Shown here: positions 6,771 through 25,364 of the stretch, piece by piece | Position numbering within the stretch: the first letter of the stretch is position 1 | How the letters are laid out: each line of letters begins with the position of its first letter | Assembly: GCF_904831005.1 (NCBI RefSeq) | Contig: NZ_LR882982.1 | Location: 2,666,001-2,730,000, forward strand | Length of the DNA: 64,000 nucleotides | Reading direction: 5' to 3' | Source: Microbacterium hydrocarbonoxydans | GTDB taxonomy: Bacteria > Actinomycetota > Actinomycetes > Actinomycetales > Microbacteriaceae | Program-made: the position numbers and the translations under genes | Notes under the pieces: generated by a model | The model's database searches: none | Told to the model about the DNA's origin: nothing | What the model saw: the letters and a program-made list of their open reading frames with translations, nothing else

Positions 6771-8144
<1,374 letters not shown>

Positions 8145-8157
8145 TGTAGGGATCGGT

Positions 8158-8622
8158 ATGGTGCGCGTGCTGATCACCGGTATGTCCGGGGTAGGAAAGT
8201 CGACCTTACTGGGTCGGCTCGCGCAACGAGGGCACCGCACGATCGACACGGACTACGACGGGTGGCAGCTTGCCGACGGAACCTGGGACGAGCCTCGAAT
8301 GGCCGCGCTTCTCGCTCACGAGAGTTCAGTGGTCGTGTCGGGCGCCGCGGAGAACCAGGGACGTTTCTATGACCGGTTCGAGTACGTCGTGCTGCTCAGC
8401 GCCCCAGTCGATCTGTTGCTCGAGCGTGTCCGCGCTCGCTCGAACAATCCGTACGGAAGGTCGGCACAGGATCAGGAAGAGATCCGCCGCTACGTGATCG
8501 AGGTGCAGCCTCTGCTGCGCTCCGGCGCGGATCTCGAGCTCGATGCTCGCAGGTCCGTCGATGACCTGGCAGATGAGATCGAGTCTCTTCTGGGGCCCGG
8601 CACAGCAACGCCGTCACAGTAG
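8158..8622 (+). CDS. P-loop NTPase, small nucleoside/shikimate-kinase-like protein
   Basis: A 154-residue single-domain P-loop protein with Walker A GMSGVGKST at residues 8-16, a DTDYDGW segment matching the substrate-binding aspartate region of small kinases, and an R-rich LID (VRARSNNPYGRS). This size and layout match adenylate/shikimate kinase-like ATPases often annotated as AAA family. Substrate is unknown. It starts 13 nt after the dnaB stop and is probably co-transcribed; a functional link to replication is not established. Confidence 0.85.
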   Translation: MVRVLITGMSGVGKSTLLGRLAQRGHRTIDTDYDGWQLADGTWDEPRMAALLAHESSVVVSGAAENQGRFYDRFEYVVLLSAPVDLLLERVRARSNNPYGRSAQDQEEIRRYVIEVQPLLRSGADLELDARRSVDDLADEIESLLGPGTATPSQ

Positions 8623-8663: not shown

Positions 8664-9314
8664 TCACTCGAGGTCGCACTTCCAGCCCACGCATGGGAGC
8701 TTCGGATCGCGCGCGACCTCGCCTTCGGGAACCGTCAGCATCTGCTCCGACCGGGGGATGCTGAACATCTGCAGCCCGTCGGTGGTCATCAGAGTGCGCC
8801 ACGAGTCGCAGGCGGGATCGAACGGCGGCTGCTCGTAGTCGAAGGGCCGCAGCACCTCGGGTGAGCGGGAATCGCGGAGAGCCTTCAGGTCATCCCACAT
8901 CGGGTCATCGCTGAGTTCGGTCTCGGGCTCGGGTCGTACGAGCTGCACTGTGGCGACCTGAGCGTCCATCACGGTCGGATCGGAGAAGATCGGGATCCGC
9001 GGACCCCGCACGGTGAAGTCATAGGTCACGCCGGCGACGAGGTGCACGGTGCGCGACGGATCGGCGGCGCAGGTCACCTCGCTGTTCGCGTAGTAGACGC
9101 CGCAGTCCGTGGTGATCGTGGAGTAGTCCGGACCTCTGCGGACGTGATGATCGTCGACGCCGTCCGTCAGCGTGCACGAGGTCTCGGCGGTCGCGGGGAA
9201 CAGAGGATTCACGAATCGAAGCCCTGCGAGAGCGACGAGGGCGAGGAACACCCCGACACCGATGAACGTCCAGACCCTGCGCGCTGTGCCTGACGACGAG
9301 TCCCCCCGAACCAT
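8664..9314 (-). CDS. Hypothetical membrane-anchored protein
   Basis: A 216-residue protein with one N-terminal transmembrane helix (FIGVGVFLALVALAGLRF, about residues 17-34) and an extracytoplasmic domain holding six cysteines (SCTL, DCGVYY, VTCAA, PACDS, PCVGWKC), a pattern that suggests disulphide bonds outside the cell. No family is recognised. It converges with the P-loop gene at 8158-8622 and has no operon partner. The region upstream (9315-9599) has no gene and no obvious site. Confidence 0.8.
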   Translation of the reverse strand: MVRGDSSSGTARRVWTFIGVGVFLALVALAGLRFVNPLFPATAETSCTLTDGVDDHHVRRGPDYSTITTDCGVYYANSEVTCAADPSRTVHLVAGVTYDFTVRGPRIPIFSDPTVMDAQVATVQLVRPEPETELSDDPMWDDLKALRDSRSPEVLRPFDYEQPPFDPACDSWRTLMTTDGLQMFSIPRSEQMLTVPEGEVARDPKLPCVGWKCDLE

Positions 9315-9599
9315 GCACCGATCATCGCAGATGCGGCTGCCGGATGCGGCGGCCCGACGGTGTCGAGTCGAGGGAGACGGGACGCCCCCACCACGGGGGA
9401 GGCGGCGGAAAGGGCGCCCCGTCAGACGTCGTCATTCGGACGGCGCCGCGGCCGCCGCGTCGAGCGCGACAGTGCTGCTCACCTAGGGTGACACCCGATC
9501 AGAGCCGACACAAGTGACCCTTTGGCCAGTCCTGCGCCCGATCCGGTCGGCCGTCATGTCGTCGCGCGAGGCGGGGCCGCGTCACCGGCCGCCTCGTGA

Positions 9600-10355
9600 C
9601 TATGCGCGCGGCGGGTTCAGCGGCAGCCACTCCTCGAGCGTCGTCTCGAAGATGTGCGCGCCCTCGACGGGGATGAGAGTGCGCTCCTCGATCTGCGCAC
9701 CGTAGTACGGAGCGCTGTCATCGCGGACGACCGTGCGCGGGTCGCCGCGGAACGCGAGGGCGCGGCGCGCGAACTCGTCCATGCCGAAGGCTTCGGGGCC
9801 GGCGATCTCGATGTCGCCGGTCGGCGCACCGGCAGCCGCGCGGGCCACGGCGGTGGCGACGTCGTCAGCCGCGATCGGCTGGATCAGCGCGCCGGGCAGG
9901 GTCACGGTGTCGCCCTCGGTCGAGATGTCGGCGATGCTGCCCACGAACTCGAAGAACTGCGTGGCGTGCACGAGCGAGTAGGCGATGCCCGAGTCGCGGA
10001 TCAGCTTCTCCTGCGCGGTCTTCGCCGCGAAGTAGGCGATGTTCTGCGGACGGTTCGTGCCGACGATCGTGAGTGCGACGTGGTGCGTGACACCGGCCGC
10101 GGCTTCGGCGGCGAGCAGGGTGCGGGTCGACGTGGTGAAGAACTCGAGCACGTCGTCGGGCGCGAACGAGGGGGAGTTCGACACGTCGACCACCGTGTCG
10201 GCTCCCACGAGGACCTCTGCGAGCCCTTCGCCGGTGAGCGCATTCACGCCGGTGTTCGGCGACGCGGCGACGGCCTCGTGGCCGTGCTCGGTCAGCTTCG
10301 CGACGACTTTCGAGCCGATGAGGCCGGTGCCTCCGATGACGATGATCTTTGCCAT
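9600..10355 (-). CDS. NmrA-like SDR, NAD(P)-binding oxidoreductase
   Basis: A 251-residue atypical short-chain dehydrogenase. The N-terminus has the extended-SDR dinucleotide motif GGTGLIG (residues 8-14) and the fold continues with VALTIVGTN and the HATQFFEF motif shared by this NmrA-like group. The start at 10355 follows a GAAAGG site. It is a paralogue of the gene directly upstream (10411-11205) and of the SDR at 37144-37905. A putative ECF41-type promoter (10404-10431) gives it its own start, inside the 3' end of the upstream gene. The substrate is unknown. Confidence 0.88.
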   Translation of the reverse strand: MAKIIVIGGTGLIGSKVVAKLTEHGHEAVAASPNTGVNALTGEGLAEVLVGADTVVDVSNSPSFAPDDVLEFFTTSTRTLLAAEAAAGVTHHVALTIVGTNRPQNIAYFAAKTAQEKLIRDSGIAYSLVHATQFFEFVGSIADISTEGDTVTLPGALIQPIAADDVATAVARAAAGAPTGDIEIAGPEAFGMDEFARRALAFRGDPRTVVRDDSAPYYGAQIEERTLIPVEGAHIFETTLEEWLPLNPPRA

Positions 10356-11293: not shown

Positions 11294-11321
11294 CGTCACA
11301 GATCGCCGAATCGAGCGGTCA
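11294..11321 (+). promoter_or_regulatory. Putative autoregulatory ECF41 promoter
   Basis: CGTCACA (11294-11300) is followed after 15 nt by CGGTCA (11316-11321), ahead of the sigma factor gene. Identical words and spacing occur on the opposite strand at 11251-11279 and at 10404-10431. ECF sigma factors usually transcribe their own gene. Confidence 0.7.
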
Positions 11322-12304: not shown

Positions 12305-12735
12305 CGCGCAGGCGGTCGTCGGCGCGAGTGCGCCGGCGACGTGATGGTGCGCCCGCCGTGCCCGCCGTGCCCGCCGGCGAAACCGTGCGACTCGACGACC
12401 TCGCGCGGGCGCTCGACGGGAGCGACCGGACCGGCATCCGTTCGATGCTGCACCCCGATGTGGTGCTGATCATCGACAGCGGCGGCCGCATGCCGGAGTC
12501 GTCGACGACTGTGATCGGGCGTGCGGCAGCATCCGCAGGGCTCGCGGCGCTGATGACGACCGGGACCAGCATCGCGATGGCGTCGATCAACGGCGTCCCC
12601 GGCATGGTGGTCATGCGGCAGGGCGCGACTGTTGCAGCTGTCTCCGTCGAGAGTCGGTCAGGACTGCTCTCGAGTGTCTGGATCGTCTGCAACCCCGACA
12701 AGCTCACCCACTGGAACCGGCCGGTCGGCGACTAG
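12301..12735 (+). CDS. Stand-alone SnoaL-like protein coupled to ECF41 sigma factor
   Basis: A 144-residue protein whose ATG at 12301 overlaps the stop of the sigma factor gene (ATGA), so it is translationally coupled. After a basic N-terminus, residues about 25-140 look like a SnoaL/NTF2-like fold (LARALDGSDRTGIRSMLHPDVVLIIDSGG). It ends with WIVCNPDKLTHW: NPDKL is the motif normally found in the C-terminal domain of ECF41 sigma factors themselves. It therefore looks like a second, detached copy of the sigma factor control domain. Role as a regulator is inference. Confidence 0.85.
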   Translation: MTRRRSSARVRRRRDGAPAVPAVPAGETVRLDDLARALDGSDRTGIRSMLHPDVVLIIDSGGRMPESSTTVIGRAAASAGLAALMTTGTSIAMASINGVPGMVVMRQGATVAAVSVESRSGLLSSVWIVCNPDKLTHWNRPVGD

Positions 12736-13517
12736 AGCGTGATGTCCGAGGCCGAGGCGAGTGCCCGCCACTCTGTGGACCGCGCCGTGCGCGCGGCGAG
12801 CACGTCGGCGTCGAGGAGAGGGCCGACGTCGAGCCCCGTCATCCGCACGATCTCGGTGAGCGGAACCTGGAAGGTGCGGAAGCCCCCGAGCGGTGGCGCG
12901 GCGAACAGGCCGTCGGGCGACTCGACGAGCTCGGACTGATCGAGCACGAACCCCGCGGCTGCCAGCCCGTCTGGTCCCTGCCAGGCCGCGATCTTCCAGA
13001 ACAGCAGAGGAACGCGGATGCCGCGGTACGGCGGGTCGTCGTCTCCCAGCACGGGGGCCGTGAACACCGAGATCCGCTGATCGGTGGTCTCGGCATATTC
13101 GAGCACGTGGTCTTCCAGACCGAGCCACAGCTCTGCGGACTGATTGAAACCGGCGGCCTGCGGGGCGGCGTTCGGATAGAAGAACGTCGCCTCGGTCGCC
13201 GCCCGGGCGTCGTCGGCATCGCCCCAGCCGGGGTCGCGACGGCGCACGAGGTGGCCGCGATCGAGGTCGTTGCGCGCGTACACCTCGGGTCCGGTCTGCA
13301 GGGCGGCCTCCACCCGGGGGTCGAGCTGCCAGTCCCCGGTGCGGGGCAGCTCGCGCAGCAGCGCGCCGTCGATGTTCACGCCCGTCACTGCGGCCAGGCG
13401 GCGTTCGCCGTCGAGCAGCACGCTGAAGTGCGGGTACGTCAGCTCCGTCGCATCGCGTGCCGGCCTGGGCAGGGGAACCCGCGTCGGAAGGAAGTCGAGG
13501 TCGTATCCGTCTGCCAT
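12732..13517 (-). CDS. DNA/RNA non-specific endonuclease (NUC1 family)
   Basis: A 261-residue beta-beta-alpha-metal nuclease. The DRGH catalytic motif (NDLDRGHLVRR, around residue 84) supplies the general-base His, and the downstream NAAPQAAGFNQ supplies the metal-binding Asn found in the family. These enzymes cut DNA and RNA without sequence preference. There is no signal peptide, so it would act in the cytoplasm or be exported by another route. It ends within 4 nt of the convergent SnoaL gene and overlaps its stop region slightly. A terminator-like hairpin lies upstream at 13568-13612. Confidence 0.9.
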   Translation of the reverse strand: MADGYDLDFLPTRVPLPRPARDATELTYPHFSVLLDGERRLAAVTGVNIDGALLRELPRTGDWQLDPRVEAALQTGPEVYARNDLDRGHLVRRRDPGWGDADDARAATEATFFYPNAAPQAAGFNQSAELWLGLEDHVLEYAETTDQRISVFTAPVLGDDDPPYRGIRVPLLFWKIAAWQGPDGLAAAGFVLDQSELVESPDGLFAAPPLGGFRTFQVPLTEIVRMTGLDVGPLLDADVLAARTARSTEWRALASASDITL

Positions 13518-15590: not shown

Positions 15591-16742
15591 TCAGCCGCGA
15601 GCGAGCGCCGCGTTCACGGCCGCTGCCGAGTACTCGCGCTCGACGACCATGGCCGCGAGACCCACGGCTGTCGCCTTCTCGCCCAGTGTCGACTGGCTGA
15701 TGCTCAGGTGCCGGGTCGCACGGGGGAGCGATCGTGGATAGAGAGTCTCGCGCACACCTGCCAGCAGTGGCGGCGATGCCAGCATCCCGCCGAGAACCAC
15801 CTCTGAGGGGTTGAGGAGCGAGACGACGGTCGCGACGACCTCGCCGATGACTCGGCCCGCCTCCTGCGTGAGCCGCGCGGCATCGGGGTCTCCGTCGGCG
15901 AGGTACGTGCCGACATCCGATGCCGACGAGGCTGGCTTGCCGAGTTCGGTGAGCGCTCGGGCCACGGCACGGCCTGATGCCGCTGCCGCGAGGCATCCGC
16001 GCGCTCCGCACTGGCACAGCAGGTCATCGTGCCCGGCGATCTTCACATGGCCGATGTCACCGGCACCTCCGTCGGTGCCTCGGTAGGCTCGACCGCCCAG
16101 CACGATGCCGGTGCCGATGCCCGACGACACCTTGATGAAGCACAGGGAGCGTGAATCGGGGTGCGCTGCGCGCTGCTCGCCCAGGGCAGCGGCGTCGGCG
16201 TCGTTCGAGACCAGCACGGGGACTCCGAGCGCGTCGTGCAGGTGATCGGGGATCGGGTAGGCGTCCCAGCCGGGCATGATCGGCGGCTGCGAGGGGCGCT
16301 CGGTGTCGGGGTCGACAGGACCGGGGATGCTGAGCGCGATCGCCGCCACGTCTTCCCGGCGGATGCCGGCCTGCGACAGCAGGCGCCCGGCGTGCTCGGC
16401 GATGGCGTTGAGGGTCGCGTCGGGACCGTCGGCGACGGCGACCTCGATGCGCTCCTCGGCAGTCACTCGGCCGGCGAGATCGGTCAGCGCGACGGTGGTG
16501 TGCGTGGTGTCGACGTTGGCGGCGATCACGTGCGCGTGCGCGGTGTTGAACTCGAGGCGACGTGACGGTCGACCCGAGGTGACCTTCTCGGTTCCCGACT
16601 CGATGATGAGTCCGGCCTCGAGAAGCGCGTCGATGCGCGTGGCGACGGTCATCCGCGACATCCCGGTGATGTCGAGCACGTCGCCGCGCGTGAAGGCGCG
16701 GCGCTCCCTGATGAGATCGAGGACTTCACCTGGACCGGACAT
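15591..16742 (-). CDS. ROK family transcriptional repressor of the adjacent glycoside operon
   Basis: A 383-residue regulator. An N-terminal winged helix-turn-helix (FTRGDVLDITGMSRMTVATRI, residues about 18-38) binds DNA. The ROK sugar-binding domain follows with the DxGxT-like segment and the zinc motif CQCGARGC. It is divergent from the seven-gene operon starting at 16867. The shared 124-nt gap contains an 8-bp palindrome (16780-16802) directly after a TTGACA box, a typical repressor site. The inducer should be a sugar or sugar phosphate made by the operon. Confidence 0.93.
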   Translation of the reverse strand: MSGPGEVLDLIRERRAFTRGDVLDITGMSRMTVATRIDALLEAGLIIESGTEKVTSGRPSRRLEFNTAHAHVIAANVDTTHTTVALTDLAGRVTAEERIEVAVADGPDATLNAIAEHAGRLLSQAGIRREDVAAIALSIPGPVDPDTERPSQPPIMPGWDAYPIPDHLHDALGVPVLVSNDADAAALGEQRAAHPDSRSLCFIKVSSGIGTGIVLGGRAYRGTDGGAGDIGHVKIAGHDDLLCQCGARGCLAAAASGRAVARALTELGKPASSASDVGTYLADGDPDAARLTQEAGRVIGEVVATVVSLLNPSEVVLGGMLASPPLLAGVRETLYPRSLPRATRHLSISQSTLGEKATAVGLAAMVVEREYSAAAVNAALARG

Positions 16743-16774
16743 CGAACCTCCTGACGACGAGTTCAGCCTAATGC

Positions 16775-16803
16775 TTGACAGCTAGACGACTTATGTCTAG
16801 CTT
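16775..16803 (+). promoter_or_regulatory. Promoter and ROK operator of the glycoside operon
   Basis: A consensus -35 box TTGACA (16775-16780) is followed 17 nt later by TAGCTT (16798-16803), a fair -10. A perfect inverted repeat AGCTAGAC-N7-GTCTAGCT (16780-16802) fills the spacer between them, so a bound protein would block RNA polymerase. The ROK regulator transcribed the other way is the obvious candidate. Confidence 0.8.
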
Positions 16804-16866
16804 TTAGTCTTAATGGGAGCCGGCCCGACGGCTCAGTCCTGCATTTCCAGCGCAAGGAGGCGCATA

Positions 16867-18255
16867 GTGAATACCCGTGCGACAGCAGCAGCAATGGCCG
16901 CGGTGTGCGTGACGGCGCTCGCCCTCACCGGATGCACGAGCTCCGGCGACGACGACGGCGGCGATGCCGGCATCACCTTCTGGTTGCAGGAGGACCTTCC
17001 TGACCGCGTGGCCGCCACGCAGGAGATCGTCGATGCGTTCACCGACGAGACCGGCATCGAGGTCGAGGTCGTCTCGGTCGCCGAAGACCAGTTCGCCCAG
17101 CTCATCACCTCGTCTGCTGCGGCCGGCGACCTGCCCGACGTGATCGGCGGGATCTCGCTGCCTCAGGTGCGCACGCTGTCGGCCAACGAGTTCGTCGACA
17201 CAGATGCCGTCGCTGCGACGATCGACGCGCTCGACCCGTCGACGTTCTCCGAGAACGCGCTCGCGCTGACCTCCGACGGGGACACCAGCCTGGCGATCCC
17301 GAGTGAGTCGTGGACTCAGATGCTCTTCTACCGCACCGACCTCTTCGAGGCTGCGGGCCTGGATGTCCCCGACTCGTACGAATCGATCCTCGAGGCCGCG
17401 AAGACCCTCGACTCGCCGGAGGTCGCCGGTTTCGTCGGCGCCACCGCCCCGGGAGACGCCTTCACAGAGCAGACCTTCGAGCAGATCGCGCTCGGCAACG
17501 GGTGCGAGCTCGTGAACGAAGACGGTGACGTCGAGCTCGATTCGGATGCCTGTGTCAGCGCGTTGGAGTTCTACGGCGAGCTGACCGGCGACTACTCGGT
17601 GCCGGGCGCTCAAGACGTCGACACGACCCGCGCCACGTACTTCGCGGGCGACGCGGCCATGTTCATCTGGTCGAGTTTCGTGCTCGACGAGCTGGCGGGC
17701 CTGCGTGAGGACGCGAAGCCCTCGTGCCCCGAGTGCCTTGCCGACCCCGCCTTCCTCGCGGCGAACACCGGTGTGGTCACGTCGATCGCCGGACCCGATT
17801 CCGACGCCGCGGCGCAGTTCGGCGAGATCACCTCGTGGACCATCACCGAGGGAGCCGCCACCGACGCGTCGCAATCGTTCGTCGAATACATGATGAGCGA
17901 CGGCTACGAGCCCTGGATCGCGATCGCTCCCGAGGGCAAGGTTCCCGTGCGAACCGGTACCCCCGAAGAGCCGACGGCGTTCTCCGACATGTGGGCCACG
18001 CTGCCCGCCGGAGTCGACACCAAGGCTCCTCTGTCCGACTTCTACGCACCCGAGGTCCTCGATGCTGTGGCCGCAGGGCCCGAGGATCTCGCCCGCTGGG
18101 GCATCACCCAGGGTCAGGGCTCGCTGCTCGGCGCGCTGCAGGGCGAGCTCCCCGTTGCGACGGCGGTGAGCGATGTCGCCCAGGGCGGTGACCCGGCTGA
18201 CGCCGCGTCGACCGCCGCCGAGACCGTGCGTTCGATCGCAGAGTCGCTGAAGTGA
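16867..18255 (+). CDS. ABC transporter sugar-binding lipoprotein (family 1 extracellular solute-binding)
   Basis: A 462-residue lipoprotein. The GTG at 16867 was chosen because AAGGAGG (16854-16860) precedes it by 6 nt. The signal peptide ends in LTGC. The mature part has the MalE-like fold (ITFWLQEDLPDRVAATQEIVDAF, later VEVVSVAEDQF and GDLPDVI). It captures a carbohydrate outside the cell for the two permeases that follow. Its stop overlaps the permease start (GTGA). Equivalent in place to YcjN of E. coli. No ATPase gene is in the operon, so a shared MsmK-type ATPase is likely. Confidence 0.93.
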   Translation: MNTRATAAAMAAVCVTALALTGCTSSGDDDGGDAGITFWLQEDLPDRVAATQEIVDAFTDETGIEVEVVSVAEDQFAQLITSSAAAGDLPDVIGGISLPQVRTLSANEFVDTDAVAATIDALDPSTFSENALALTSDGDTSLAIPSESWTQMLFYRTDLFEAAGLDVPDSYESILEAAKTLDSPEVAGFVGATAPGDAFTEQTFEQIALGNGCELVNEDGDVELDSDACVSALEFYGELTGDYSVPGAQDVDTTRATYFAGDAAMFIWSSFVLDELAGLREDAKPSCPECLADPAFLAANTGVVTSIAGPDSDAAAQFGEITSWTITEGAATDASQSFVEYMMSDGYEPWIAIAPEGKVPVRTGTPEEPTAFSDMWATLPAGVDTKAPLSDFYAPEVLDAVAAGPEDLARWGITQGQGSLLGALQGELPVATAVSDVAQGGDPADAASTAAETVRSIAESLK

Positions 18256-19280
18256 GCAGAGTCGTCGAAGGGTCCGGGCTCGGGGCACAGCGCCCCGAGC
18301 CCGGCACCACGCCGCCGAGACCGACCGGCGCAGTGAAGCCGCGGCGCGGGTCGAGGCACAGTCGGGAGGAGAACCGGGCGGGGCTGCTGCTCATCTCGCC
18401 GACCTTCATCATCATCGTGGTCGCCGTCGTCCTGCCGATCATCTGGGCGATCTCCCTCGCGTTCCAGGACGTCCGTCTGATCAACATCCGCGGCACCGGC
18501 ATCATCGGCGACTACACACTCGACAACTTCATCGACGTGCTGACATCGCCCGGCTTCTTCAGCGCGCTGTGGACCACGATCGTCTACGCCGTGTGCGGTA
18601 CGGCGCTCGCGATCGGCATCGGCCTCGCCGCCGCCCTCGCCCTGCGCAAGCCGTTCCGCGGGCGCGGTCTCGTGCGCGCCTCGCTGCTGCTGCCGTACGT
18701 GGCCCCGGTCGTGGCCGCGACGTTCGTGTGGTCGACCATGCTCAACCCGCAGTTCGGCATAGTGAACTGGTTCGGCACCACCGTGCTCGGTTGGGAGGAG
18801 CCGATCGCGTTCCTCTCCGACCGCGCTCTGCCCGTGAGCATCTTCGGCTGGCAGGTCGAGCTGCCGATGGCGCTGATCACCGTCATCCTGTTCGAAGCCT
18901 GGCGATCCTTCCCGTTCGCCTTCCTGTTCCTGACCGCCCGACTCGAGGCGGTGCCCGGCGTGCTCGACGAGGCGGCGAGGGTCGACGGTGCGACCCCGAC
19001 GCAGCGCTTCCGTCACATCCTTCTGCCCCAGCTGCTGCCGACGATCGCGGTGCTCTGCGTGCTGCGTTTCATCTGGACGTTCAACAACTTCGACGACATC
19101 TACCTGCTGACGGGCGGCGGAGCCGGCACAGAGGTCGTCTCGGTGCGGGTGTTCGATCTGCTCACCGCGCGCGGTGACATCGGCGCCGCGGCAGCGCAGG
19201 CCCTGGTGCTCGCGGCCATTCTCGCCGTGCTCGTCGGCGTCTATCTCAAGATCTTCGGTCGACAGGAGGAGCAGGCATGA
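18252..19280 (+). CDS. Carbohydrate ABC transporter permease, MalF-like
   Basis: A 342-residue inner-membrane permease. After about 45 basic, soluble residues there are six transmembrane segments (the first is LLLISPTFIIIVVAVVLPII). The EAA loop reads EAARVDGATPTQRF near residue 240 and contacts the ATPase. The GTG start overlaps the binding-protein stop by 4 nt. Equivalent in position to YcjO. It forms a heterodimer with the next gene product. Confidence 0.93.
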   Translation: MSRVVEGSGLGAQRPEPGTTPPRPTGAVKPRRGSRHSREENRAGLLLISPTFIIIVVAVVLPIIWAISLAFQDVRLINIRGTGIIGDYTLDNFIDVLTSPGFFSALWTTIVYAVCGTALAIGIGLAAALALRKPFRGRGLVRASLLLPYVAPVVAATFVWSTMLNPQFGIVNWFGTTVLGWEEPIAFLSDRALPVSIFGWQVELPMALITVILFEAWRSFPFAFLFLTARLEAVPGVLDEAARVDGATPTQRFRHILLPQLLPTIAVLCVLRFIWTFNNFDDIYLLTGGGAGTEVVSVRVFDLLTARGDIGAAAAQALVLAAILAVLVGVYLKIFGRQEEQA

Positions 19281-20194
19281 GTGCGACGACAGACGCCGCC
19301 ATCGGGGCCCGACCCACCAGGCGGGGGATCGACCGCGACACCTTCGAGAACGCCCTGTTCCGCATCCTGCGCCCGATCGTGATCGTGCTGCTGGTGCTCG
19401 CCGCGGTCGTGCCGTTCTACTACATGGTGCTGCTGAGCTTCCGCTCGCTCGACTCGCTGCTGCAGAACCCGGGCGCGCTGTGGATCACGATCGAGGAGCT
19501 CGACCTCTCGACCTATCTCGACGTGCTGGCGCCCGTCGACGCCGGCGGGCAGGGCTTCATCGTCTTCATGCGCAACTCGCTGCTGGTTGCACTCGCGACG
19601 GTCGTGCTGACGCTCCTGGTGTCGATCCCCGGCTCGTATGCCGTGAGCAGGCTGGCCTTCTTCGGTCGCCGACAGGTCTCCGGGCTGTTCCTCGCGGTCT
19701 ACTTCTTCCCGGCGATCCTGCTGGCGGTGCCGCTGTTCGTGTTCTTCACGCAGATCGGACTGCGCGGCTCGCTCGTCGGACTGCTGATCGTCTATGTGTC
19801 GCAGGTGGCGGCTGTGTCGATCTACACACTGCGCAACTACTTCGCCACGATCCCGGTGTCGCTCGAGGAGGCCGCGGCACTCGACGGGTGCACCCGGTTC
19901 CAGATCATGCGCCGGGTCAGCATCCCGCTCGCCATGCCTGCGATCGTGTCGAACGGCCTCTTCATCTTCATGATCGCGTGGAACGAGTTCCTGTTCGCGC
20001 TGCTGTTCCTCGTCGAGAAACGCGATTCATGGACGGTCTCGCTGGGCCTCTCCCAGCTCTCCGGCAGCATCGAGGTGCCGACCACGGTGCTCATGGCCGG
20101 TTCCGTGATCCTGACCCTGCCCATCATCATCCTCTTCTTCGCCTCCGAGCGGCTCCTCGTCGGAGGCCTCACCGCCGGTGCGGAGAAGGGCTGA
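19277..20194 (+). CDS. Carbohydrate ABC transporter permease, MalG-like
   Basis: A 305-residue permease with six transmembrane segments and the EAA loop EEAAALDGCTRFQI. It pairs with the MalF-like protein. The ATG overlaps the previous stop by 4 nt. Equivalent in position to YcjP. A 25-nt gap before the dehydrogenase gene is the only non-overlapping joint in the operon. Confidence 0.93.
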   Translation: MSATTDAAIGARPTRRGIDRDTFENALFRILRPIVIVLLVLAAVVPFYYMVLLSFRSLDSLLQNPGALWITIEELDLSTYLDVLAPVDAGGQGFIVFMRNSLLVALATVVLTLLVSIPGSYAVSRLAFFGRRQVSGLFLAVYFFPAILLAVPLFVFFTQIGLRGSLVGLLIVYVSQVAAVSIYTLRNYFATIPVSLEEAAALDGCTRFQIMRRVSIPLAMPAIVSNGLFIFMIAWNEFLFALLFLVEKRDSWTVSLGLSQLSGSIEVPTTVLMAGSVILTLPIIILFFASERLLVGGLTAGAEKG

Positions 20195-20219
20195 ATCCCC
20201 GCTGGAAAGAAGGCCCCCC

Positions 20220-21278
20220 GTGCCCCACGTCGTGCAGTTCTCCGCCGTCCGAGAGGTCGAGCTGGTCGAGATCGCGCCGCAGTCGCTCACACCCGGAAGC
20301 GTGCGGATCTCCACCTGGTACTCGGGCATCTCGGCCGGCACCGAGCTCACCGCCTACCGCGGAACCAACCCGTATCTCACCTCGACCTGGGACTCCGACC
20401 GGCGGCTCTTCGTGCCGGGCGAGCCCAGCTTCGGATACCCGGTCTCCGGCTGGGGGTACTCCGAGGTCGGCGAGGTAACCGAGGTCGCCGACGACGTGAG
20501 CGGGGTTCGGGTCGGAGACGTCGTGCACGGCATCTGGGGCCACCGCAGTGACGCCGTCGTGCCGGCATCCGCGGTCGTGGGGCGGATCGTGCCCGACGGC
20601 GCCGACCCCGTGCTCGGGACGTTCGCGCGGGTGGGAGCGATCGCTCTGAACGCCGTGCTCGCCGCCGACGTGCGGCTCGGCGAGCAGGTCGCGGTGTTCG
20701 GGCAGGGCGTGATCGGACTGCTCGCTACCCGCCTCGCCACGCGCGCCGGTGCACGAGTCACGGCGGTCGACACGCTCGCGACCCGCCTGGCGATGGCCGA
20801 GGTCTTCGGCGCGCGGCACACGGTCGACGCGCTGCGGCCGGGCGGTGCGGGCGAGCTGATCCGCGAGCTCACGGGCGGCGGCGCCGACAGCGCGATCGAG
20901 CTGTCGGGTACCGATCGCGCCCTGCATGAGGCGATCCGAGCGGTGATGACGGAGGGGCTCGTCGCCGCCTCCGGCTTCTACCAGGGGGGTGGTGCCAACC
21001 TGCGCCTGGGGGAGGAGTTCCACCACAACCGCGTGCGGATCGTCGCCAGCCAGATCTCCGGAGTGCCCGTCGCTCTCGGCGGCCGATGGGACCAGGCTCG
21101 CCTCGTGCGCACCGTCATGGCGCTCATCTTCGACGGATCGGTGGATGCCGGGGTGCTCGTGTCCGACATCGCGGCGGCGGCCGATGTCGCCGAGGTCTTC
21201 GAGAGGCTCGACGCGGGCGACCCCGACATCATGCAGGCCGTGCTCCGCTTCGACGCCGCCCCCGAGCGTCTCCGGTGA
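20220..21278 (+). CDS. MDR-family dehydrogenase, YcjQ-like
   Basis: A 352-residue medium-chain dehydrogenase. The GTG start at 20220 follows GAAGG. The N-terminal GroES-like domain has SGISAGTELTAYRG where zinc ADHs carry the catalytic Cys, so the first zinc ligand is not a cysteine. The Rossmann motif GQGVIG lies near residue 162. The C-terminal FHHNRVRIVASQIS resembles a segment of E. coli YcjQ as I recall it. YcjQ oxidises position 3 of gulosides with NAD. By place in the operon this protein may oxidise or reduce the 3-position of a glycoside; that is inference. Confidence 0.85.
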   Translation: MPHVVQFSAVREVELVEIAPQSLTPGSVRISTWYSGISAGTELTAYRGTNPYLTSTWDSDRRLFVPGEPSFGYPVSGWGYSEVGEVTEVADDVSGVRVGDVVHGIWGHRSDAVVPASAVVGRIVPDGADPVLGTFARVGAIALNAVLAADVRLGEQVAVFGQGVIGLLATRLATRAGARVTAVDTLATRLAMAEVFGARHTVDALRPGGAGELIRELTGGGADSAIELSGTDRALHEAIRAVMTEGLVAASGFYQGGGANLRLGEEFHHNRVRIVASQISGVPVALGGRWDQARLVRTVMALIFDGSVDAGVLVSDIAAAADVAEVFERLDAGDPDIMQAVLRFDAAPERLR

Positions 21279-22372
21279 GCGGCATCCCCGACCATCGCCC
21301 GCGCTTCCCGGATCGCCGTCGCACGATCGGGATCATCGGCGCGGGTGCGATCGCCCGCAGCGCCCACCTTCCTGCATACGGCGCATGGGACCTCCCCGTC
21401 GTGGCCGTGGCCTCGCGAAGTCGCGGTGACGCCGAAGCGCTCGCCGCCGACTACGGCATCGAGACCGTCCACGACTCCGTCGAGGCCCTGCTCGCGGATC
21501 CTCGCGTCGAGATCGTCGATCTGGCGACCGGGCCGACGGGTCGTGTCGAGCTGATCGCCGCGGCGGTCGCAGCCGGCAAGCACGTGCTCGCCCAGAAGCC
21601 GCTCATCAGCGACCCCGCCGACCTGCCCCGCCTGCTCGAGGTGCTCGCCGATGCTCGTGCACACGGAGTCCGCGTGGCGGTGAATCAGAACGCGCGTTGG
21701 GCTCCGGCCTGGCGCCTCGCGTCTCTGCTGATCCGCGACGGCCGGATCGGCGAGGTGGTGGGGGTCACGCATCTGCACGACAAGCCGCTGCCGCCACTCG
21801 TGGGCACGCCCTTCGACGACGTGCCGCACATGCTCCTGAACGACTACCTCGTGCACTGGGTCGACATCACCCGCTGCTGGCTCGAAGGATCCCGGGTGGT
21901 CGAGATCGCGGCCCGCGACCACCGCGTTCCCGGCCAGCCCGCCGCCGCCCGGAACTCGTGGGGGGCAGACCTGCGGATGCAGACGTCGACGGGGGCGAGC
22001 GCATCGATCCGCATCGTGGGCAGTGCCCGCACAGACGCCGGCGGATGCCCGTTCTGGATCCACGGGACCGAGGGAACCATCCGCGGCAGCATCCTGCTCG
22101 GCTCCGACCGCCTGGTGCTCGAGCGCGACGGAGAGAGCAGCGAGTTCGACCTCCACGGCCAGTGGTTCACTGACGGATTCGCGGGCGCAATGGGCGAGCT
22201 GCAGTGCGCGATCGACGAGGAGCGTGAACCCGAGAACTCGGCCGAGCACGTCGTCGCCACGGTGCGCGCGACCTTCGCCGCCGTCGAATCCGCCGAACTC
22301 GACGGCGCACCCGTGCGCCCCCACGACCTCGAACTGACGACAGCCCTCGCCGGGCGGAGTGGAGCAGAGTGA
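21275..22372 (+). CDS. Gfo/Idh/MocA family dehydrogenase, YcjS-like
   Basis: A 365-residue NAD(P)-dependent oxidoreductase starting at GTG 21275, which overlaps the previous stop by 4 nt. The N-terminal Rossmann domain has GAGAIARSAHLPAY; the catalytic Lys is in AQKPLI, where the family norm is EKP, so Glu is replaced by Gln. The C-terminal alpha/beta domain contains the DYLVHWVDITRCW segment with the catalytic His/Asp pair region. E. coli YcjS reduces 3-keto-glucosides. The pairing of this gene with a YcjQ-like gene points to a two-step oxidation and reduction at C3 of a sugar. Confidence 0.87.
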   Translation: MSGIPDHRPRFPDRRRTIGIIGAGAIARSAHLPAYGAWDLPVVAVASRSRGDAEALAADYGIETVHDSVEALLADPRVEIVDLATGPTGRVELIAAAVAAGKHVLAQKPLISDPADLPRLLEVLADARAHGVRVAVNQNARWAPAWRLASLLIRDGRIGEVVGVTHLHDKPLPPLVGTPFDDVPHMLLNDYLVHWVDITRCWLEGSRVVEIAARDHRVPGQPAAARNSWGADLRMQTSTGASASIRIVGSARTDAGGCPFWIHGTEGTIRGSILLGSDRLVLERDGESSEFDLHGQWFTDGFAGAMGELQCAIDEEREPENSAEHVVATVRATFAAVESAELDGAPVRPHDLELTTALAGRSGAE

Positions 22373-23670
22373 GCGTCCTCGATGAGATCCCCGTCGGGCC
22401 CGACGCCCGGGTGTACGCGGAGGGCTGGCAGAGCTGGAGCCCGACCACGTGGCACGGCCAGGGCGACCCGATCCTCCGGCCGGCCGAGCCGTGGCAGCAC
22501 GCCATGCGCTTCCGTCCGGGAACCGAGGTGGCGACGGATGCCGTGCAGGGCGAAGGGCTGCTCGTCGTCGATCCGGGCGACGGTGCTCCCGCTCGGGTCT
22601 TCGGCACGCTCGACGCCCGACGCGAGGTGCCCACACTGCGCGCCCGCTGGCACGGCGACCGGGTGATCGTGGACGCGATCGGCGATGTCGCCGACGTCTC
22701 GTCGTGGACTCCGGATGCCGGTGGCGACGACACGGGTCTCGCCGCGCTCGCCGCGTTCGGCGATCGATTCGGCGCGGCCGCCGGGGCCAGGACCGCCGCT
22801 CGATCACCTCGCGTGTGGTGCACCTGGTACGAGTACTTCGAAGAGGTGCGGGACGCAGACGTGTTCGAGAACCTCCATGCGATCGACGATCGGGGACTCG
22901 ACGTCGACGTGGTGCAGATCGACGATGGCTGGAGCCTGGGCACCGGCGAGTGGACCGCGCCCCACCCGCGCTTCGGTTCTCTTCGGGCCGTGGTCGACGC
23001 GATCCGCGAGAGCGGGCGCCGTGCGGGCATCTGGGCCGCGCCCTTCTCGGTCGGCGCCGGCTCGACCGTCGCCCGGGAGCACCCCGACTGGCTCGTCGGC
23101 GATGCGGGGCGCAACTGGGACGACGACCTCAGGGGTCTCGACCTGACGCATCCGGGTGTCCGTGACTACCTCGCGAGCGTCTTCTCCGGCATCCGCGATC
23201 TCGGCATCGACTACGTCAAGCTCGACTTCCTCTACTCCGGTGCGATCCCGGGGGCACGGTGGGACTCGGATGCCACGCCGATCTCGGCCTACCGCTCGGG
23301 CGCCGAGCTCATCCGCGAAGTGCTCGGCGACGACGCCTTCATGCTCGGGTGCGGTGCCCCGATCCTCCCCAGCGTCGGACTGCTCGACGGCATGCGGGTC
23401 TCGGGCGACACCTTCCACGAGGGCGGCGAGGACGGCTCCCAGGGGCTCCGCGGGCGAATGTCGCTGGAGGCCAGGTCGTGGCAGCACGGGCGGTTCTGGG
23501 TCAACGACCCCGATTGTCTGGTCGCGCGGCCGGAATTCGCCCTTCGCGACGAGTGGGCTGAAGTGGTTCTCGCGGCACCCGGAATCCGTGGGTTCTCCGA
23601 TCGCATCGACGGCCTCGATGCACGCGGCATGCAGCTCGTCCGCGAGCTTCTGAAGGAGTCGGTGGCATGA
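22369..23670 (+). CDS. GH36-type alpha-galactosidase-like glycosidase
   Basis: A 433-residue glycosidase with the GH36 core: an N-terminal GWQSWS motif, VQIDDGW near residue 184, GIWAAPF, and YVKLDFLY with the catalytic nucleophile Asp (about residue 284). The acid/base Asp should be in RVSGDTF. It is much shorter than classical GH36 enzymes of about 700 residues because the N-terminal beta-sandwich is reduced to about 140 residues and no C-terminal domain is seen. No signal peptide, so it acts on an imported substrate. GTG start overlaps the previous stop. Alpha-galactosidase activity is the family default, not proven here. Confidence 0.88.
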   Translation: MSVLDEIPVGPDARVYAEGWQSWSPTTWHGQGDPILRPAEPWQHAMRFRPGTEVATDAVQGEGLLVVDPGDGAPARVFGTLDARREVPTLRARWHGDRVIVDAIGDVADVSSWTPDAGGDDTGLAALAAFGDRFGAAAGARTAARSPRVWCTWYEYFEEVRDADVFENLHAIDDRGLDVDVVQIDDGWSLGTGEWTAPHPRFGSLRAVVDAIRESGRRAGIWAAPFSVGAGSTVAREHPDWLVGDAGRNWDDDLRGLDLTHPGVRDYLASVFSGIRDLGIDYVKLDFLYSGAIPGARWDSDATPISAYRSGAELIREVLGDDAFMLGCGAPILPSVGLLDGMRVSGDTFHEGGEDGSQGLRGRMSLEARSWQHGRFWVNDPDCLVARPEFALRDEWAEVVLAAPGIRGFSDRIDGLDARGMQLVRELLKESVA

Positions 23671-25364
23671 AGACCATGATTCAGCTCGAGCAGCGCCTGG
23701 CGCCCCTGGTCGCGCAGCTCTATCCGGAAGCCGCTCCCTCGGTGCTCGCGGCACTGCTCGAGCTCGCCGCGACGTGGCGCGCCCGACTGTCGCCGGCGGC
23801 GAAAGCACGACCGGATGAGAGCACGGCCTACCTGATCACCTACGGAGACTCGTTCCGTCGGGCCGGCGAGGCGCCGCTGCACACCCTCGCGGGAGTGCTG
23901 CGGGAGCACATCGGCGACGTCATCAGCGACGTGCACCTGCTGCCCATCTACCCGTGGACCTCGGACGACGGCTTCGGCGTGCTCGATCACCGTGAGGTGA
24001 ACCCGGCGCTGGGCACGTGGGACGACGTCGCCGACCTGCGTGAGGAGTACGCCCTCGCCCTCGATTTCGTCGCCAATCACATCTCGAGCTCGTCGCACTG
24101 GTTCCGCGGCTGGCTCGAGCGCGACGAGCGGTTCGCCGGGTACTTCCTCGACCCCGCTCCCGACTTCGATCTCTCGCACGTCGTGCGCCCGCGCACCACC
24201 CCGCTCGTCCACGAGTACACGCGCCCCGACGGCTCGACAGCCCGGGCGTGGACGACCTTCGGAGACGACCAGATCGACGTCGACCCGAGCACGCCCGCGG
24301 TGCTGCTCGACCTCACCGACATCCTGCTCGGCTACCTCGCTCACGGAGCGACGACCGTGCGCCTCGACGCGATCGGCTACCTCTGGAAGGAGTCGGGCAC
24401 CAGCTGCATCCACCTGCCGCAGACCCACGCGATCATTCGCATCTGGCGCGCCCTGGTCGACGAGCTGGCTCCCGGCACGATGCTGCTCACCGAGACCAAC
24501 GTCCCCCACGCCGACAACATCACCTACTTCGGCGACGGCGATGACGAGGCGAACATGGTCTACCAGTTCGCCCTGCCCCCGCTGGTGCTGCACGCGTTCG
24601 TGACCGGTCGGGCGACGGCGCTCGCCGCGTGGGCGAGCAGGGTGGGGCCGGTGAGCGGCACCGCCACCTGGTTCAACTTCCTCGCCAGTCACGACGGCAT
24701 CGGGCTGCGCCCCACAGAAGGGCTGCTGACCGACGATGATCGCGCCCTGCTCGTGGAGCGCACCCTGGCCCGCGGGGGCCGGGTCTCGATGGCACGTCGC
24801 CCCGACGGCAGCGAAGGCGTCTACGAGCTCAACACGAACTACCTCGAGGCGCTCGTCGATCCGCACGACCCCGACCCCGACGCATCGGCCGTCACCCGCG
24901 GCCTCGCGGCGCACGCGATCCTGCTGTCGGTGGTCGGCGTGCCCGCGATCTACCACCACTCGCTGTTCGGTTCCGAGCAGGACCACGCGGGGGTGCAGGA
25001 GAGCGACATCGCGCGACGCATCAATCGGGAGGTGCTCGACGCCGACCGCCTGCGCGACGAGCTGCGTGTCTCGCACCGTCGAGCGGGCATGCTCGACGGT
25101 GTGCGGACGATGCTGGCGGTGCGGCGCGAGGTCGCCGCGTTCTCTCCGTTCGCGTCGCAGCAGATCGAGTCGCTCGACGACCGCGTGCTCGTGATCCGTC
25201 GGGCGGCCGGCACCCCGGATGAGGTGACGGCGGTCGTGAATGTCAGCGACTCGACGGTCGATCTGCCGTCGTTGAGCGGCACCGACCTGCTCACGGATGC
25301 TCGTCACGAAGGGCTTCGCATCGCACCCTTCGGCTACGTCTGGCTCGCCACGACGTCACGCTGA
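23667..25364 (+). CDS. GH13_18 phosphorylase, YcjM/glucosylglycerate phosphorylase-like
   Basis: A 565-residue GH13 subfamily 18 enzyme. Recognisable blocks are AYLITYGDSFR, HLLPIYPWTSDDGFG, DFVANHISSSSHWF, VRLDAIGYLWKESGTSCIHL (nucleophile Asp) and LLTETNVPHADN (acid/base Glu). These, and the length, resemble E. coli YcjM and glucosylglycerate phosphorylases more than the shorter sucrose phosphorylases. Such enzymes split a glucoside with phosphate to give alpha-glucose 1-phosphate. The ATG overlaps the GH36 stop (ATGA). Last gene of the operon, followed by a terminator. Alternative: sucrose phosphorylase, which would fit raffinose use with the GH36. Confidence 0.88.
   Translation: MKTMIQLEQRLAPLVAQLYPEAAPSVLAALLELAATWRARLSPAAKARPDESTAYLITYGDSFRRAGEAPLHTLAGVLREHIGDVISDVHLLPIYPWTSDDGFGVLDHREVNPALGTWDDVADLREEYALALDFVANHISSSSHWFRGWLERDERFAGYFLDPAPDFDLSHVVRPRTTPLVHEYTRPDGSTARAWTTFGDDQIDVDPSTPAVLLDLTDILLGYLAHGATTVRLDAIGYLWKESGTSCIHLPQTHAIIRIWRALVDELAPGTMLLTETNVPHADNITYFGDGDDEANMVYQFALPPLVLHAFVTGRATALAAWASRVGPVSGTATWFNFLASHDGIGLRPTEGLLTDDDRALLVERTLARGGRVSMARRPDGSEGVYELNTNYLEALVDPHDPDPDASAVTRGLAAHAILLSVVGVPAIYHHSLFGSEQDHAGVQESDIARRINREVLDADRLRDELRVSHRRAGMLDGVRTMLAVRREVAAFSPFASQQIESLDDRVLVIRRAAGTPDEVTAVVNVSDSTVDLPSLSGTDLLTDARHEGLRIAPFGYVWLATTSR

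Follow-up and report, generated by a model that had tools for sequence, protein, structure and literature searches.

A ycj-type operon of Microbacterium hydrocarbonoxydans with a GH36 enzyme and a predicted glucosylglycerate phosphorylase

Introduction

The locus described here raises the question of which compound a ycj-type operon would import and break down when a glycoside hydrolase of family GH36 stands in the place of the YcjR epimerase and the YcjT kojibiose phosphorylase of Escherichia coli. It lies in a 64,000-nt stretch of Microbacterium hydrocarbonoxydans DNA (the window), corresponding to 2.67–2.73 Mb of the 3.72-Mb single-contig genome. At positions 16867–25364 on the plus strand, genes for a sugar-binding protein, two ABC permeases, a medium-chain dehydrogenase/reductase (MDR), a Gfo/Idh dehydrogenase (Gfo), a GH36 enzyme and a GH13_18 phosphorylase follow one another, which confirms the gene order given in an earlier, sequence-only reading of the same DNA. 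We put the chances at about even that this operon imports and dismantles glycosylated 2-O-α-glucosylglycerate. The enzyme families, the predicted assignment of the GH13_18 protein as a glucosylglycerate phosphorylase (GGaP, EC 2.4.1.352) and the apparently accessory nature of an MDR–Gfo–GH36 cassette are supported by sequence and comparison.

GGaP, glucosylglycerate hydrolase (GgH) and the ycj enzymes are already known. For E. coli YcjN, the recent screen reported in PMC11543891 found no ligand; kojibiose and glucose were among the compounds tried, and glucosides were left out. All four YcjN clusters studied there hold YcjO and YcjP genes, and two of the four also hold YcjM. In the open-licence literature, represented mostly by titles and the beginnings of abstracts, we found no account of the GH36 variant, of its link to glycerate kinase or glucosylglycerate hydrolase, or of the cassette, and no paper joining glucosylglycerate, an ABC transporter and glycerate kinase.

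Assignment of the GH13_18 enzyme

According to PMC7178133, GGaP is marked by a (T/S)ETN sequence at the tip of β-5 and by a Glu replacing Gln in loop A, where sucrose phosphorylases have the motif N(L/V)D(I/L/V)YQ. The GH13 protein of the window carries both GGaP fingerprints, in the sequences LLTETNVPH and VYELN, and the sucrose phosphorylase motif is absent from it. In the alignment, TETN was found in 48 of 49 YcjM-like rows (the exception being L086) and in none of the five rows that make up the sucrose/glucosylglycerol phosphorylase side; the loop-A Glu was present in 49/49 YcjM-like rows, and all five rows on the other side had Tyr-Gln. A tree of 54 rows, which did not include the bifunctional enzyme XpGP, split the YcjM side, including the window protein, from the sucrose/glucosylglycerol phosphorylase side with a support of 100/100. 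The five comparison rows are two plasmid genes annotated as gtfA and three solved chains, of which 7qqi bears a name that gives no specificity, and 2 of the 49 YcjM-like rows contain an internal stop (X).

Judging from the published fingerprints and the tree position, all of which it has in common with GGaP, the GH13_18 protein is probably a GGaP. It is set apart from the known enzyme by the linked importer and dehydrogenase–GH36 cassette. These results support the earlier suggestion that the protein would release glucose 1-phosphate. Firm grouping with the sucrose phosphorylases had been named beforehand as a result that would tell against the glycoside pathway proposed there; the protein grouped with YcjM and away from them.

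Two members of the family deserve separate mention. In the GH13_18 protein of L086, AEVN replaces TETN and the terminal branch is the longest in the tree, possibly indicating a further specificity. L149, on a Pseudoalteromonas megaplasmid, holds an unannotated YcjM-like frame that is interrupted by a single stop; it adjoins HAD-IIB and glycosyltransferase genes in an arrangement that resembles a glucosylglycerate synthesis cluster.

Distribution and gene context

Relatives of the GH13 protein were counted at an E-value of 1e-60, with the window's genome included in each count, and occurred in 13/149 genomes of the genus, 12/396 of the order, 6/296 of the class and 19/396 of the phylum. The nearest named relatives are from Microbacterium. 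The same gene set was found again in Microbacterium, Nocardioides and other actinobacteria of the same order, and the arrangement is therefore not due to chance.

We surveyed the neighbourhoods of 45 GH13 loci, including the window; some of these stretches stop at contig ends, and genome G138, which is the genome of L005, was taken once. At the score limits set, 17 loci have the MDR, and it is these 17 that have GH36 as well; Gfo accompanies the two in 15, and the transporter trio occurs in 24 of the 45. In seven loci (L005, L060, L063, L064, L065, L067 and L082), the transporter genes accompany GH13 but MDR and GH36 are both missing, and the remaining 21 have GH13 in other settings. Since L005 and L060 are nested among cassette-bearing loci in the GH13 tree, they look like cassette losses that kept the transporter and GH13. 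The genomes of L060, L063, L064 and L065 contain no real GH36 relative (a single 19-bit match) and no close MDR (at best 34% identity over part of the protein, E 2e-19), and neither was found in G138 at the limits of the MDR and GH36 genome searches. From the seven cassette-free loci and these genomes, the transporter and GGaP seem to be useful alone, as a core for glucosylglycerate to which MDR–Gfo–GH36 would be an accessory cassette.

Links to glycerate and glucosylglycerate recur around these genes. A glycerate kinase gene stands beside GH13 in 6/45 loci, three with the cassette (L007, L008 and L062) and three without it (L063, L064 and L065), as called by Pfam (PF02595) for L007, L062, L063 and L064 and by blast for L008 and L065. 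Two further loci, L133 and L134, show the order PF22422-type hydrolase, permeases, second PF22422 enzyme, GH36, MDR and Gfo, and no GH13 match was obtained within the neighbourhood stretch searched. The first hydrolase of L133 strongly matched the mannosylglycerate hydrolase of Thermus (2z07, E 5e-101) and two entries for the mycobacterial glucosylglycerate hydrolase, 6g3n (E 8e-84) and 5ohc (E 1.5e-82); PMC6608630 gives 5ohc as an MhGgH entry. The second PF22422 enzyme of L133 gave weak matches to the same families (E 7e-22 and 1.5e-16). The L134 enzymes were classed by blast, the second one also by Pfam. In L133, and judging by blast also in L134, a relative of the mycobacterial hydrolase (GH63, MhGgH) accompanies this cassette, and there is none in the window operon. 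Because the cassette occurs with these hydrolase-like enzymes and without GH13, it appears to go with either route of glucosylglycerate breakdown, GGaP or hydrolase. A PF22422 enzyme, GH13, MDR and GH36 all occur together in L088, and L136 combines transporter genes 50–61% identical to those of the window with an MDR, YcjR and a PF22422 hydrolase.

A GDE_N_bis/MGH1-like glycosidase also recurs near glucosylglycerate genes, at 11308–13320 of L063 and 4664–6583 of L136; the two proteins are 42% identical to each other over 372 residues.

Relationship to the E. coli ycj operon

Comparison with E. coli proteins gave identities of 41% over 561 aa for GH13 and YcjM, 30% over 332 aa for MDR and YcjQ, 27% over 368 aa for the binding protein and YcjN, and 36% each for the permeases and YcjO and YcjP. 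The best solved-structure match of the binding protein is E. coli YcjN itself (8vqk, E 2e-33). On a Pseudalkalibacillus plasmid (NZ_CP156675), the gene order, with roles taken from the product names in the record, is N-O-P-Q-R-S-T-U-M, and its GH13 is sister to the GH13 group of the window (100/100). Given these similarities, the YcjN structure match and the sister position, the sequences identify the window operon as a ycj-type operon that lacks R, T and U and carries GH36, in support of the homology proposed earlier. No YcjR, YcjT or YcjU match was found at positions 8001–34000 of the window and no YcjT match in the 17 loci with MDR and GH36, so that the proposed absence of YcjR and YcjT, with GH36 in their place, also held. 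The operon shares with E. coli ycjMNOPQRSTUV-W the order binding protein, permeases, MDR and Gfo as well as a YcjM-type GH13, but E. coli has the YcjR epimerase, the YcjT kojibiose phosphorylase and the YcjU mutase where the window operon has GH36. The regulators differ too: that of the window is a ROK protein, whose alignment to E. coli YcjW covers at most 20 residues.

The kinship of the second dehydrogenase was weaker. In the E. coli annotation (NC_000913.3), YcjQ is a guloside and YcjS a glucoside 3-dehydrogenase, and YcjR acts on 3-dehydro-gulosides. The Gfo/Idh protein aligns to YcjS over the 150 N-terminal residues only (31% identity) and shares with it K110, D192 and H196. Overall identity to two YcjS proteins is 20% and 22%, which rules out Gfo as a close YcjS counterpart and distinguishes the window operon from E. 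coli ycj with its dehydrogenase pair; in this detail the earlier equation of the two proteins was not supported.

A search of 392 genomes with the MDR gave 54 matches at 1e-25, including that of the window. Among the 53 others, contexts were read for the 12 closest (47–60% identity; one, in G1123, is that of L088) and for three distant ones. A YcjR homologue lies near the MDR in 8 of the 12 closest, adjoining it in L136–L140, L142 and L143 and separated from it by about 4 kb in L141. The other four have GH36 (L133, L134 and L088) or neither GH36 nor YcjR (L135); of the three distant loci, L144 and L145 have YcjR and L146 has neither. A tree of 33 MDRs placed the 19 beside GH36 and the 12 labelled with YcjR on opposite sides of a branch with 98/96 support; the long-branch row L146 falls among the GH36-side MDRs and its placement is unsure. 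At the expected positions of the zinc ligands, which we take to be Cys and His in zinc-dependent members, the MDR family of the window reads SGISAGTEL and GWGYSE. The family may thus be zinc-free, despite database labels such as zinc-binding or bacteriochlorophyllide dehydrogenase.

When ten YcjR proteins were compared with the 17 loci with MDR and GH36, with L133 and L134, and with the seven minimal loci (E 1e-3), only L088 gave a match. At 8056–8361, L088 encodes 102 residues from the N-terminus of a YcjR homologue, with 45–56% identity to actinobacterial YcjR; this stretch follows the MDR directly and stops just short of the GH36 frame. As YcjR proteins have about 260 residues, the fragment looks like an epimerase remnant, in line with YcjR giving way to GH36. 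The fragment favours such a replacement, yet it sits in a locus without Gfo; the L088 genome is in 210 contigs and 87% complete.

The GH36 enzyme

In the alignment of the window GH36 with the Thermotoga α-galactosidase 1zy9, the motifs QIDDGW, KLDFLY, GCG and RVSGD were fully or almost fully conserved, and the acid/base Asp corresponds to the residue replaced by Ala in the 6gta chain. The sequence thus contains the retaining Asp pair and galactose-binding motifs expected of an α-galactosidase; the roles of these residues and of the acid/base Asp are those that we presume for the family. Compared with 1zy9, the window protein is shorter and is clustered with dehydrogenases.

GH36 relatives were found in 32/356 genomes, and 16 regions, one of them L088 again, were taken for context. 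Relatives with 41–46% identity stand beside a GH42 β-galactosidase in four of five loci checked with Pfam (L183, L186, L188 and L193), the last two of which also have GalT close by; the L182 neighbours put to Pfam included neither GH42 nor GalT. In 18 of the 19 GH36 proteins beside an MDR, the loop bearing the acid/base residue is short by three residues relative to the other rows of the comparison and has F/Y-H following the acid/base Asp-Thr. This form occurs in 0/15 others, and the L088 protein lacks it. This short F/Y-H loop is a possible substrate marker. In the GH36 tree, the label "beside MDR" must have changed at least twice across supported branches, since L088 is placed away from the others, albeit on a long branch.

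Proposed pathway and alternatives

In the pathway proposed here, we infer the identity of the outer sugar and its reaction at C3, the sequence of the reactions, their control and the actual substrate. The YcjN-type binding protein and the two permeases would take up a glycosylated glucosylglycerate, presumably with a shared ATPase. The MDR and Gfo/Idh enzymes would oxidise and then re-reduce its outer sugar, likely at C3, to the α-galacto configuration. GH36 would hydrolyse off the α-galactosyl unit to leave glucosylglycerate, which GH13_18 would phosphorolyse to glucose 1-phosphate and glycerate, and a glycerate kinase would then phosphorylate the glycerate. By analogy with the annotation of YcjQ and YcjS, and a kinship of at most 30%, C3 is most likely the site of both dehydrogenases.

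Several observations weigh against this proposal. To our knowledge, there is no natural galactosyl- or gulosyl-glucosylglycerate. The window operon has no glycerate kinase gene, and the one PF02595 match of the genome is unlinked, at about 3.10 Mb. Identity between the MDR and YcjQ is as low as 30% and a long branch separates the two, and the low overall identity of Gfo to the YcjS proteins points the same way. Gfo is missing from 2 of the 17 loci with MDR and GH36, L057 and L088; its best relatives elsewhere in these two genomes reach 35% identity over part of the protein (G326) and 38% over 132 residues (in the 87% complete G1123, the genome of L088). In L050 (G373), Gfo/Idh is split across two overlapping frames (9153–10285), either as a broken gene or through a sequencing error. 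In pairs with L057, dN/dS was 0.22–0.35 for the MDR and 0.20–0.28 for GH36, little higher than the 0.10–0.24 and 0.13–0.24 of pairs without it; at 0.20–0.35 in four pairs, both L057 genes are still under purifying selection. Together with the missing Gfo genes, this indicates that the dehydrogenase pair is not obligatory, and L057 and L088 would need a single-dehydrogenase mode or a substitute Gfo.

A bolder form of the proposal, which we put forward only tentatively, starts from the fact that a 3-keto-guloside and the corresponding 3-keto-galactoside are one compound. An MDR–Gfo pair could therefore invert C3 and supply a galactoside to GH36: with opposite facial choice, the two enzymes would turn α-gulosyl- into α-galactosyl-glucosylglycerate at no net redox cost, and GH36 and GGaP would finish the breakdown. 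Such a shortcut would make YcjR, a C4 epimerase, and the gluco-specific YcjT dispensable, with GH36 in their place, and the YcjR fragment of L088 would be a trace of the switch. The absence of Gfo from L057 and L088, its split in L050 and the purifying selection on the L057 MDR and GH36 count against it.

It is also conceivable, though doubtful, that GH36 trims an α-galactosyl-glucosylglycerate and that MDR and Gfo act on galactose or another sugar after its release. Gfo could then be absent while MDR and GH36 persist, and the GH36 motifs are those of an ordinary α-galactosidase. Such action after release is disfavoured by the YcjR homologues near 8 of the 12 closest MDRs, E. coli YcjR being annotated for 3-dehydro-gulosides, and by the GalT genes close to two other GH36 loci, L188 and L193. 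Redox-assisted cleavage, in which the MDR would make a 3-keto glycoside, GH36 would cleave the 3-keto form and Gfo would reduce the freed 3-keto sugar, appears unlikely. The constant company of MDR and GH36 (17/17 GH13 loci, with Gfo in 15/17) and the short His-bearing loop of GH36 beside an MDR are in its favour, but GH36 keeps the retaining pair and the α-galactosidase pocket motifs, which need no keto group.

Quite unlikely, in our view, is a GH13_18 enzyme whose acceptor is a different one or whose acceptor range is wider, such as a bifunctional enzyme that is also active on sucrose, in an operon not specific for glucosylglycerate. A sucrose-active glucosylglycerate phosphorylase, XpGP from Xylanomonas proteatiae (as spelled), is described in PMC11009771; in the present family, TETN, the loop-A Glu and the glycerate kinase neighbours speak against such breadth. 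The simpler raffinose-type reading, in which GH36 would free galactose from raffinose and GH13 would phosphorolyse sucrose, draws on the family names alone (GH36 and GH13_18) and is highly improbable; it was rejected on the position of GH13 on the YcjM side of the 100/100 split and its motifs, the sucrose phosphorylase loop motif being absent. The seven loci with transporter and GH13 without GH36 also speak against it, and it leaves unexplained the neighbours of the glycerate kinase and glucosylglycerate hydrolase types.

The breakdown of glycosylated glucosylglycerate, as proposed above, would matter beyond this operon. Judging from the actinobacterial variants, ycj-type operons may share glycosylated glucosylglycerates as their food, and if the guloside-to-galactoside shortcut is true, the food of the E. 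coli ycj operon would also be a glycosylated glucosylglycerate. The variants provide separable enzymes that can be assayed individually, and stand a fair chance of revealing the missing ycj substrate. They also call into question the database names given to some members, such as sucrose phosphorylase and bacteriochlorophyllide dehydrogenase.

Operon layout, regulator and neighbouring features

The tight seven-gene operon and a divergent gene for a ROK repressor together span 15591–25364, and 4-bp overlaps occur at five of the six junctions within the operon. Homologue start positions suggest that the MDR most likely starts at the GTG at 20220, 25 nt past the end of the second permease gene. 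The features are listed in Table 1.

Table 1. Features of the ycj-type operon and its upstream region in the window.
Feature	Position	Strand	Basis
Sugar-binding protein, YcjN type, lipoprotein-like start	16867–18255	+	PF01547; start GTG 16867; lipobox by eye in translation
ABC permease 1 (YcjO type)	18252–19280	+	PF00528; 36% to YcjO
ABC permease 2 (YcjP type)	19277–20194	+	PF00528; 36% to YcjP
MDR dehydrogenase, YcjQ-related family	20220–21278	+	PF00107; 30% to YcjQ; tree
Gfo/Idh/MocA dehydrogenase, no close YcjS counterpart	21275–22372	+	PF01408, PF22725; start GTG 21275
Short GH36 α-galactosidase-type enzyme	22369–23670	+	PF02065; Thermotoga 1zy9 E 3e-61; conserved catalytic-site motifs
GH13_18 glucosylglycerate phosphorylase (predicted)	23667–25364	+	41% to YcjM; TETN motif; loop-A Glu; tree
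ROK-family repressor, divergent from operon	15591–16742	-	PF00480 E 3e-48
Operator-like perfect inverted repeat AGCTAGAC-N7-GTCTAGCT (putative)	16780–16802		between ROK and binding-protein genes

The ROK gene, which the earlier reading did not mention, travels with the module: a relative scoring above 250 bits occurs in 21/45 GH13 loci. The ROK protein would keep the operon repressed until a ligand or product is present. No second copy of the repeat AGCTAGAC-N7-GTCTAGCT was found in a scan of the window allowing up to two substitutions. The 6+6 core of the repeat, with at most one substitution, was also sought in 26 other loci, and in five of them (L005, L052, L054, L055 and L057) it lies at or adjoining the gap between the ROK and binding-protein genes. 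Farther upstream in the window, a DNA/RNA non-specific endonuclease family protein (PF01223) is encoded at 12732–13517 on the minus strand.

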